Source: Pirellulales bacterium (GTDB taxonomy: Bacteria; Planctomycetota; Planctomycetia; Pirellulales; DATAWG01). From it: DNA of 63,992 nt. Under the pieces are notes generated by a model, which was given only the letters and a program-made list of their open reading frames with translations, did not search any database and had not been told where the DNA came from. The translations under genes and the position numbers were made by a program. The DNA is taken from positions 1 through 63,992 of the forward strand of contig DASZFO010000123.1 in assembly GCA_035939775.1 (NCBI GenBank), in the 5' to 3' direction. Position 1 is the stretch's first letter; each line of letters opens with the position of its first letter. Of this stretch, positions 10,025 to 61,465 are shown in pieces.

Positions 10025-10032
10025 GCGCTCGC

Positions 10033-10131
10033 GGGACTGTCCCCCTTTGCGCGGGCACCGTCGCCGCGATGGTCGGCGGAGCAAAACGGAGACTGTCCCG
10101 TTTGCTAGGCGGTTCTCTATTAGGCTCTAAC
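10033..10131. repeat. GGGGACAGTCCCC-type element, subtype A, degraded copy
   Basis: Two GGGACTGTCCC-like palindromes flank a centre containing GCCGCGATGGTCGGCGGAGC. This centre is the reverse complement, with one change, of the centre of the element at 35230-35349, so the copies lie in opposite orientation. The right outer arm (GGCGGTTCTCTATTAGGCTC, 10108-10127) matches the arm of the 60393 copy. The left arm is hardly recognisable, so this looks like an older or truncated copy. Confidence 0.75.
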
Positions 10132-35229: not shown

Positions 35230-35349
35230 AGAGCGCCTAACAAATCCGGCGGGGAGAAGGGGACAGTCCCCGTTTTGCTCCGCCGACCATCGCGGCGATG
35301 GTGCCCGCGCAAAAAGGGGACAGTCCCCGCCGGACTTATTCGGCGCTCT
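35230..35349. repeat. GGGGACAGTCCCC-type element, subtype A, complete copy
   Basis: A 120-base element. Outer arms of 21 bases (35230-35250 and 35329-35349) are reverse complements with three mismatches; they contain AGAGCGCC and TCCGGC. Inside are two exact GGGGACAGTCCCC palindromes (35259-35271 and 35316-35328) around the centre GCTCCGCCGACCATCGCGGC. It lies in the divergent spacer between tatC and the PQQ gene, 20 bases before the latter's ATG. Confidence 0.9.
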
Positions 35350-56905: not shown

Positions 56906-57006
56906 ACCTCTCACCCAAAGTTCCGAGCGGATTTGTCGGCGGGCGACGACTTCATGCAAACCTCTTGAGCCGCGGCCCCTGCTCGACTACGATCTAAAAG
57001 GCAACC

Positions 57007-57087
57007 CAAGAACCGCCGAAGGAGAAGGGGACAGTCCCCTTTTTTTCCGAAGACTCCACAAAAGGGGACAGTCCCCGGCGGTTCTTG
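57007..57087. repeat. GGGGACAGTCCCC-type element, subtype B, complete copy
   Basis: An 81-base element with perfect 12-base ends CAAGAACCGCCG (57007-57018) and CGGCGGTTCTTG (57076-57087). It contains two exact GGGGACAGTCCCC palindromes (57027-57039 and 57064-57076) and a centre TTCCGAAGACTCCACAAAA. It sits just upstream of the P-II gene. The same centre, with two changes, is found in the copy at 60393-60491. Confidence 0.92.
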
Positions 57088-57112
57088 ACCCAGGCACGGA
57101 GCGTTGCGACCG

Positions 57113-57460
57113 ATGAAGCTGATAATCGCCATCATTCAGCCCAGCCGCCTCGAGGCGGTCAAGGCCGCTCTGACCGAGGTCGAGGTGTTCCGCCTCACCA
57201 TCATGGACGTGCAAGGCTTCGGCCGCCAGAAGGGGCATACCGAGGTTTATCGCGGGCACGAGATTTCCGTCAATCTGCTACGGAAAGTGCAACTTCAGAT
57301 CGCGGTGAACGAGGAATTCGTCGAGCCGACGATCAACGCGATCATCAAAGGGGGCCGCACCGGCAAGGCCGGCGAGATCGGCGACGGCAAAATCTTCGTC
57401 CTCCCGCTGGAAGACTGCATCCGCATCCGCACCGGCGAACGGGGCGGCGAAGCGATTTAG
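57113..57460 (+). CDS. P-II family nitrogen regulatory protein lacking Tyr51
   Basis: A 115-residue trimeric signal protein of the GlnB/GlnK family. Family features are MKLIIAIIQPSRLEAVKAAL, the T-loop start GFGRQKGHTEVYRGHE, the B-loop GGRTGKAGEIGDGKIFVLP and the C-terminal RIRTGERGGEAI. P-II proteins sense ATP/ADP and 2-oxoglutarate and bind targets such as AmtB or GlnE. The usual uridylylation site Tyr51 (RGAEY) is Ile51 here (RGHEI), so uridylylation at that site is excluded, although Tyr46 is kept. No amtB, glnA or glnD is adjacent. Immediately upstream is a GGGGACAGTCCCC element and immediately downstream a perfect hairpin. Confidence 0.93.
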   Translation: MKLIIAIIQPSRLEAVKAALTEVEVFRLTIMDVQGFGRQKGHTEVYRGHEISVNLLRKVQLQIAVNEEFVEPTINAIIKGGRTGKAGEIGDGKIFVLPLEDCIRIRTGERGGEAI

Positions 57461-59353: not shown

Positions 59354-61465
59354 TCATTCGTTGGATCCCGCCGTGGTCAGGCTCCACTGCTCGATATTCT
59401 GATACAGCGTAAGGGGACGCCCGCCGATACCTTCTAATCCACGCTGGTACGCCGCGTAGTTGCTCAGTCGCCAGAGCGGAATCGCGAGCGCTTGCTCGCG
59501 GATTATTTCCTCGAGTTGCCCAGTGCGCTCGCCCGCTCGGTCCGGTCGGGCGGCGAGAGCGTCTCGGAGTCGCCGCTCGACGAGTGGACCGGCGTCGCCC
59601 CCCAGCCCTCGCCGACCGATGAGCCGGGGCAATTCGGCGAGCGGATCCAGCGGCGTCCATTCGACGTAAATCAAATCCGCATCGCTCGAACCAGCAGACA
59701 TATCGCCGGCGGACATCTCTTTGAGTTTCAGCGACATGCCGGCCGCCCTCAATTCCTGGCCGATCGCCTGACACGCCAGTCGAGCTACTTCGTCGGCTGG
59801 ATGCGCCAAAGTCAGCTCGGTGGAAGGAATCGCCGTTCGGTCGCCGCTCCCATGAGCGCTCTCAGTGAATTGCGCAAGCGAGAGTCCGGCCAGCAGCTTG
59901 GCCGCGCCCGGATCGAAACGAAGCTCGGCCGATCCGTCAGCGGCGGCGGACCCAGGTCCTGCGATCAGCCGGTCGGTCAGTTCGCAGCCAGCCTGCAACT
60001 TTCCGCGCGAAAGCTGGTCGATGAGAATTCCCGACCGGTCCATCGCATGCGCAACCGCGCGACGAAAGGTCGGATCGTTCATCAGTGGTCGCCGCAGGTT
60101 CGGCACCAGGACGTGCAGGCTCGTTACCATGTATGGCTGAACGACGAAACGTTCGGAGTTTGCCAGCGCGGCCGCATCCCAGGGACCGATTCGATCCACG
60201 GCGGTGATTTCGCCGCGCCGCAGCGCGCGTAGGGCCGAGGCCACGTCGGGAAAGCGCCGCTCGACGATCTGCTTCGGCTGCTTTCCTCCGGCGGCGAAAT
60301 AGCCCTCGACCGCGGCAAAACGAATCTCGTTGGAGTTCGCCGATTCCACTCGATACGGACCATGAGCGTTCGCGCCAGCGTCGGTTGGCTCAGAGCCTAT
60401 CCGAGAACCGCCCGCGGAGAGGGGGACAGTCCCCTTTTGTTCCGAGGACTCCGCAAAAGGGGACAGTCCCCGGCGGATCTCGGATTGGCTCTTAGCATGG
60501 GCGTTCGATTCGAACAGCAATCGACGGTCGCGTCGCCCTTCCCAAGAGTCGGTCGCCGCGATGCCGGGAGGCGGAAGCGACGTCACTCCAACGACCACTT
60601 CCGGATATTGGCTTTGGATCGCCTGGACGAGTTCTTTTCCCCCGGCGACTTCCGGCCATGCGGAGAGCGCTTGCCGCATGGTTCGGCTGGCCTCGGAGAA
60701 TTGCCTGGCCGCGACCTGTTCCCGCGCTTTGGCCACGAGCGCGGCAGCTTTGCCGTGTAGTTTCTCATCCCAAGTCGCCGCCAAAGGCTGAGCGCGGTCC
60801 TTGAGGCGATCGGTCGCTTCGCGCAGCAGACCCCGCGCGGCGGTATAGTCTTCCTCCGCAAACCGGCGATCGATCAGCTTTGCCAACAGCCGCAGAATGC
60901 CGGTCGAGGCTCCGGAAAACTCTGGAACGCGGGAATGCAGCTCCCACAATAGGGCCAGCGCCTCTTCGTATTTCTCTTGCTGGAAGGCTTCTTTTGTCCC
61001 GGCCATGAGGAACTTGTTATACGACTCAGCCAGTCCGGCCATCGTCGGAAAGCGATGCTCGAGAAACTCGTAGAACGGGTAGGCATCGTCAAGCTTCTTG
61101 GACTCGACAAGCGCTTCCGCCTCATCGAGAACTCGCTGTTCGAACAACTTGACCTCGACGACATGCTCCCAAGCGACCTTGTAGACCTTTCGCGGCCGAT
61201 CCAAGAGATGAATCTCCAATTCGTCGCTGGGATCCGGCTTGGCGGGAATTAAGCGTCCGGGAAGATCGAGCAGGCGAACCTTCAATTCGACGTTCCGATT
61301 GGCCGCGTCGAGCTTGATCGTGTCGTAGGGCTGTTGTTGATAAAAGGGTGCGTCGTCGGCTCGCGCGAATGGAATGCTGAGCGATGCGAACCAGATCGCC
61401 AGAACCGACGGCGTGACGAGAAGCCGCCCGGGGCAAAGGATGAATTGGATGCAGTGCCGCTTCAT
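59354..61465 (-). CDS. Family-5 solute-binding protein with N-terminal helical region, carrying an in-frame repeat
   Basis: A 703-residue exported protein. The signal peptide ends ASLSIPFARA. Residues 40-290 form helical, TPR-like repeats (DAYPFYEFLEHRFPTMAGLA). The C-terminal part belongs to the SBP_bac_5 (peptide/nickel-binding) fold: YRVESANSNEIRFAAVEGYF, FRRAVAHAMDRSGILIDQLS, and IIREQALAIPLWRLSNYAAY. The typical domain is interrupted by RRGLSPFAESSEQKGTVPLS, which is the translation of a GGGGACAGTCCCC element (60393-60491). No ABC permease is nearby, so transport is uncertain. Its ATG overlaps the upstream PQQ gene stop by 4 bases. Confidence 0.85.
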   Translation of the reverse strand: MKRHCIQFILCPGRLLVTPSVLAIWFASLSIPFARADDAPFYQQQPYDTIKLDAANRNVELKVRLLDLPGRLIPAKPDPSDELEIHLLDRPRKVYKVAWEHVVEVKLFEQRVLDEAEALVESKKLDDAYPFYEFLEHRFPTMAGLAESYNKFLMAGTKEAFQQEKYEEALALLWELHSRVPEFSGASTGILRLLAKLIDRRFAEEDYTAARGLLREATDRLKDRAQPLAATWDEKLHGKAAALVAKAREQVAARQFSEASRTMRQALSAWPEVAGGKELVQAIQSQYPEVVVGVTSLPPPGIAATDSWEGRRDRRLLFESNAHAKSQSEIRRGLSPFAESSEQKGTVPLSAGGSRIGSEPTDAGANAHGPYRVESANSNEIRFAAVEGYFAAGGKQPKQIVERRFPDVASALRALRRGEITAVDRIGPWDAAALANSERFVVQPYMVTSLHVLVPNLRRPLMNDPTFRRAVAHAMDRSGILIDQLSRGKLQAGCELTDRLIAGPGSAAADGSAELRFDPGAAKLLAGLSLAQFTESAHGSGDRTAIPSTELTLAHPADEVARLACQAIGQELRAAGMSLKLKEMSAGDMSAGSSDADLIYVEWTPLDPLAELPRLIGRRGLGGDAGPLVERRLRDALAARPDRAGERTGQLEEIIREQALAIPLWRLSNYAAYQRGLEGIGGRPLTLYQNIEQWSLTTAGSNE
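60393..60491. repeat. GGGGACAGTCCCC-type element, subtype B, in frame inside a gene
   Basis: A 99-base element with 20-base outer arms (60393-60412 and 60472-60491) that match with two mismatches, and two GGGGACAGTCCCC palindromes (60422-60434 and 60459-60471). Its length is a multiple of three and the frame of the solute-binding protein continues through it. ATGAGCGTTCG (60362-60372) and ATGGGCGTTCG (60497-60507) flank it as an imperfect direct repeat. Confidence 0.92.

Follow-up and report, generated by a model that had tools for sequence, protein, structure and literature searches.

In the window, by which we mean the whole 63,992-nucleotide stretch of DNA analysed here, the gene of a solute-binding-like protein carries a short mobile element that is read in frame. 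We consider it likely that two events together explain this locus: the insertion of an IS5-type MITE and the loss of about 100 residues of the host protein. The copy in the window is one of a large family in a planctomycete genome, and members of this family are read in frame in many other genes. Below, we describe the host protein, the element family and its probable transposon class, and we weigh other explanations of the locus before turning to comparable systems.

A replaced segment in the host protein

The host gene (59354..61465, minus strand) encodes 703 amino acids with a long helical N-terminal region. It was identified as a family-5 extracellular solute-binding-like protein from its open reading frame, PF00496, its orthologues and a Foldseek match to the SBP fold; searched by sequence, the protein had no match among solved structures at E 0.001. 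The MITE copy spans 99 bp from one terminal inverted repeat (TIR) to the other (60393..60491; minus-strand, in-frame reading ..SEIRRGLSPFAESSEQKGTVPLSAGGSRIGS..). Its minus-strand translation contains the peptide SPFAESSEQKGTVPLSAGG and no stops, and its tryptic-type peptide is GLSPFAESSEQK. An earlier note on this DNA had read the 99-base copy in just this way, in frame and without a stop, and we agree: the 703-codon frame is open, and no frame error that breaks the gene is seen.

The loss of host sequence is apparent from the spacing of conserved anchors. We aligned 33 Planctomycetota orthologues, the nearest of which are only about 35-39% identical to the window protein (a same-family genome, the only one compared, yielded no orthologue). 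Between the anchors RRDRRLL (residue 311; RRxxRLL in the alignment) and GPY (residue 369; G-PY), the window protein has 58 residues, of which about 34 derive from the element, whereas the orthologues have 119-193 residues (median 127; 33/33). By this spacing, the junction (60362..60507, minus strand) lacks about 100 host residues that are present in every orthologue aligned, and a search of the whole genome, at E values up to 10, did not recover the missing segment in another place. The SBP_bac_5 domain (PF00496) is also incomplete. Residues 359-605 of the window protein match only positions 109-348 of the 368-position profile, with positions 16-108 absent, and the orthologues' match begins at position 16-21.

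The AlphaFold2 model of the window protein shows the element peptide as disordered (pLDDT 29-36), with residues 321-365 below 50; the model of one orthologue (L014) has eight ordered strands and helices there (residues 341-427). Compared with the solved binding protein 7kz8, the orthologue reaches a target-normalised TM-score of 0.85 and the window protein one of 0.56. A lobe segment is replaced here, with about 100 ordered residues gone, rather than a loop being enlarged as the earlier note had proposed. Its prediction that an alignment with orthologues would show a gap exactly at the peptide was borne out in part: none of the 33 orthologues carries the peptide, but the window protein is also missing a segment of its own. 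Insertion of the element would have been combined with the loss of host residues, and the peptide would now bridge a deletion in the first lobe. Which of the two events came first, and what they did to function, are matters that we infer; the window protein has probably ceased to be a normal binding protein, having either changed its role or begun to decay into a pseudogene.

A repeat family with inverted ends and a 3-bp duplication

The genome to which the window belongs is a draft of 6.39 Mb in 384 contigs. Judged by its protein relatives, which are Planctomycetota and Pirellulales records, the host is taken to be a planctomycete. BLAST returned 73 matches of the repeat within it, reverse-strand self-matches included, and the core of the repeat matched 44 times (exact to 3 mismatches). 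The arm motif AAAGGGGACAGTCCC, allowing at most 1 mismatch, had 452 matches in the genome compared with 1 for its reversed control; at roughly two arm motifs per copy, we estimate that there are 200-300 copies. The earlier view of the repeat as mobile is upheld by these genome-wide copies. Relatives of the 60393-60491 element across the genome are 85-95% identical to it, and 107 distinct copies were read with their flanks, a sample biased towards copies near the query.

Family members are 99-118 bp long and have 20-bp TIRs, with consensus ends GAGCCTATCCGAGAACCGCC and its complement. Immediately beyond the TIRs, three bases are directly repeated, in most cases TTA or TAA, within the context CTNAG. 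These 3-bp flanks are identical in 32 of 52 clean copies and non-identical in the other 20, whereas 100,000 shuffles gave 10.5 identical pairs on average and never more than 22. Since the flank triplets match in inverted form in only 1 of the 52, we take them to be a duplication rather than an extension of the palindrome. At the window copy, the left TIR is GAGCCTATCCGAGAACCGCC (60393..60412, plus strand), and the right TIR is GGCGGATCTCGGATTGGCTC (60472..60491, plus strand), which departs from the family form GGCGGTTCTCGGATAGGCTC at two positions. The sites of the 3-bp TNA target duplication are occupied by TCA on the left (60390..60392, plus strand) and TTA on the right (60492..60494, plus strand); that is, the duplication is imperfect here. 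Folded as single-stranded DNA, the window element reaches -41 kcal/mol compared with -20 +/- 2.8 for shuffles (z -7.6).

Many copies are incomplete. The right end is lost in 19 copies and the left end in 5. In many copies in or beside genes, the outer right repeat is missing and the copy ends sharply at GGCGGTTCTCG (L066, L063, L068, L101, L110, L114, L120, L130, L132, L136, L138 and the copy at window position 57085). The genome also contains a sister MITE family, which has the hairpin core in common but ends in GAGCGCCTAACAAATCCGGC; several of its copies have TAA or TTA duplications.

Further copies are present in the window. One lies at 56993-57101 (end GGCGGTTCTTG), about 3.4 kb from the 60393-60491 copy, and closely precedes a P-II gene (ATG at 57113; PF00543). 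As it adjoins the start of that gene, it may sit in the P-II leader. A sister MITE at 35231-35348 has ends GAGCGCCTAACAAATCCGG, flanks TAA/TGA and the common core GGGGACAGTCCCC, and no mention of this core was found in the literature searched. A degenerate copy in the opposite orientation lies at about 10030-10131, with the right end ..GGCGGTTCTCTATTAGGCTC.

Transposon class and autonomous partner

Because of its ends and its target duplication, we assign the repeat to the non-autonomous MITEs of the IS5 family, IS1031-like group. Members of the IS1031 group have GAACCTGTCTAG-type ends, target TNA and leave a 3-bp repeat (PMC12016507). Like elements of that group (e.g. ISLrh, PMC12016507), the repeat has a 3-bp TNA duplication and ends of the type GAACCTGTCTAG / GAGCCTATCCGA; unlike them, it is only 99-118 bp long and lacks a transposase gene.

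A 903-bp IS in another genome (L163:941-1843, genome G052) carries a DUF4096-type transposase in two overlapping frames, ends in GAGCGTCTAACAAAAC and has a TTA duplication. The ends of the sister family (GAGCGCCTAACAAATCCGGC) resemble those of this IS, and the IS5-type class is thus well supported; the 903-bp IS is likely to represent the type of the autonomous partner. An autonomous IS with exactly the ends of our element (GAGCCTATCCGA) was not found at the loci checked. In the window genome there is only a truncated DDE_Tnp_1 reading frame without matching ends, and no DUF4096 protein was found in this draft assembly, which may lose repeated IS copies. A search for the ends in plasmids gave chance-level matches only. 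ISAs1-like and other transposases near copies were considered as the partner and rejected, the genome's DDE_Tnp_1 loci having no matching ends.

From this, a mechanism can be proposed. A putative DDE transposase from the IS1031-like group of the IS5 family, acting in trans, would recognise the 20-bp ends GAGCCTATCCGAGAACCGCC. The hairpin element would then enter CTNAG sites, with duplication of TNA. The autonomous partner to expect would be a DUF4096/DDE IS with ends GAGCCTATCCGAGAAC and a TNA duplication.

Alternative explanations of the window locus

The element lies exactly at the deletion junction, a position that would also result from homologous recombination between two direct MITE copies, deleting the host segment and leaving a single copy as a scar. 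Such a scar would fit the TCA and TTA triplets, which differ as expected of ends from two insertions, and copies are dense in the genome, with another only 3.4 kb away. However, differing triplets are common in the family (the 20 clean copies above) and can be simple decay, and recombination of this kind needs two insertions in one gene. We regard it as possible, if somewhat unlikely. The short-read assembly could also have jumped between MITE copies and dropped the host segment, given a draft of this many contigs and 100-bp repeats that, at about 90% identity, can mislead. On the other hand, both halves of the gene match one orthologue in the correct order and frame, and no other contig carries the lost segment, which makes an assembly artefact improbable.

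The earlier note had pointed to two 11-base direct repeats as a possible target duplication, in an insertion that enlarges a loop. These repeats do exist: ATGAGCGTTCG (60362..60372, plus strand) and ATGGGCGTTCG (60497..60507, plus strand), each read as NAH on the minus strand, with starts 135 bases apart. Yet they are placed asymmetrically, the right one starting 5 nt past the right TIR and the left one ending 20 nt before the left TIR. An 11-mer repeat of this kind (at most 1 mismatch, 40-nt flanks) occurs at 1 of the 107 copies, the window copy alone, and in 1.2% of random flank pairs. For these reasons we regard the 11-bp repeats as a chance repeat and reject them as a target duplication, the family's own being the 3-bp TNA beside the TIRs. 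With about 100 host residues missing as well, a simple insertion is extremely improbable. Finally, the repeat is palindromic and of high copy number, and four Y1_Tnp genes are present in the genome (L053-L056), as would suit a REP-type palindrome that depends on a RAYT (Y1 transposase) for its movement. But no element copy was found beside the Y1_Tnp loci in the sequence covered, either in a search of RAYT loci allowing 1-2 mismatches or by BLAST at all four, and the terminal inverted repeats of the element are long and accompanied by a 3-bp target duplication. REPs are not known to have a target duplication. We consider this origin very improbable. Insertion of an IS5-type MITE combined with loss of the host segment is the reading we retain.

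In-frame copies in other genes

A mobile repeat that stays open in a reading frame had been called uncommon in the earlier note; here, it is a recurrent event. According to a Pfam scan of copy-spanning frames, at least 14 of the 107 copies are read in frame in Pfam-supported genes. The genes bearing copies include those of KdpA, a trypsin-PDZ protease, methionine synthase, lipoamide dehydrogenase, HD hydrolases and altronate dehydratase, and further ones encode a TrpE/PabB-type chorismate-binding enzyme, UbiD, GH116, GH127 and a transglutaminase.

Six in-gene copies are additive when compared with solved proteins. In KdpA (L008:614-2701), where the copy is flanked by a perfect TTG/TTG triplet, query residues 355-408 correspond to 315-318 of the solved protein, and in lipoamide dehydrogenase (L099:175-1653), residues 135-165 correspond to 125-127. 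The solved methionine synthase has a gap at the peptide (L095:486-2399). The corresponding ranges, query against solved protein, are 256-318 and 227-242 in the altronate/galactarate dehydratase, 238-322 and 159-174 in PabB (TrpE/PabB-type), and 196-252 and 210-235 in UbiD. Besides the three loci already given, the six comprise L059:642-2459, L091:508-2121 and L132:354-2150.

The length of the element offers a reason for this recurrence. An element of 99 bp and a duplication of 3 bp add up to 102 bp, or 34 codons, and four of the element's six consensus frames contain no stop, so that a copy entering a gene will often leave the reading frame intact. Such insertions would survive where the peptide falls in a tolerant surface position. 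The four open frames are used unequally by 16 in-gene copies (10, 5, 1 and 0; chi-square p 0.0014), a bias that is only suggestive because the copies were chosen by ORF length. We also asked about enrichment of the frame-preserving length class in genes and discarded it, as the difference was not significant (5/6 vs 28/55, p 0.2; the six include L094, whose ends are spurious).

Copies also adjoin or join genes in other ways. At L063 and L101, the right end of the copy abuts an ATG, that of a zinc-type alcohol dehydrogenase-like frame and of an IMPDH/CBS gene, respectively. At L114:622-2937, a copy lies between LPG_synthase_TM and glycosyltransferase-2 domains in one open frame, a possible gene fusion through the element.

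Comparison with known systems

At the scale of the genome, this planctomycete IS5-type MITE family might be a standing source of insertions of 34 residues or similar in core enzymes, given its length, its duplication and its stop-free frames, and the sub-form ending at GGCGGTTCTCG may use a second, undescribed entry route. Taken as a whole, we offer this proposal as a rather doubtful one. Insertions in well-studied proteins such as KdpA, methionine synthase and lipoamide dehydrogenase make it testable whether the peptide is tolerated, removed or used. The window copy itself is of lesser weight, being the mark of a binding protein that has been damaged or remodelled.

Among MITEs, QMITE1 and QMITE2 of Coxiella burnetii include copies that are in frame in ORFs (PMC5896051). 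They resemble our element in being bacterial MITEs of which some lie in frame in ORFs, but differ in their ends, their lengths and their direct repeats (2-3 nt and variable, or 7-11 nt), and the likeness is weaker than that to the Rickettsia palindromic elements (RPEs). The latter are palindromic, about 100-150 bp long and multicopy, and lie in frame in unrelated metabolic genes (Ogata et al. 2000, 2002, as summarised in PMC10969869 and cited in PMC5896051). As described there, they have in common with our element the palindrome, the many copies and the recurrent in-frame insertion with a shared peptide. Unlike them, our element has a host in another phylum, a planctomycete by its relatives, and is an IS5-type MITE by its ends and duplication; the likeness is one of behaviour. 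The element works like an RPE, and we do not claim RPE membership for it. It was through Rickettsia that in-frame protein insertion by palindromic mobile DNA became well known, and it is reported to be unusually frequent there, and the window genome provides an independent case, in a phylum of free-living type, with an identifiable transposon class and many copies for comparison.
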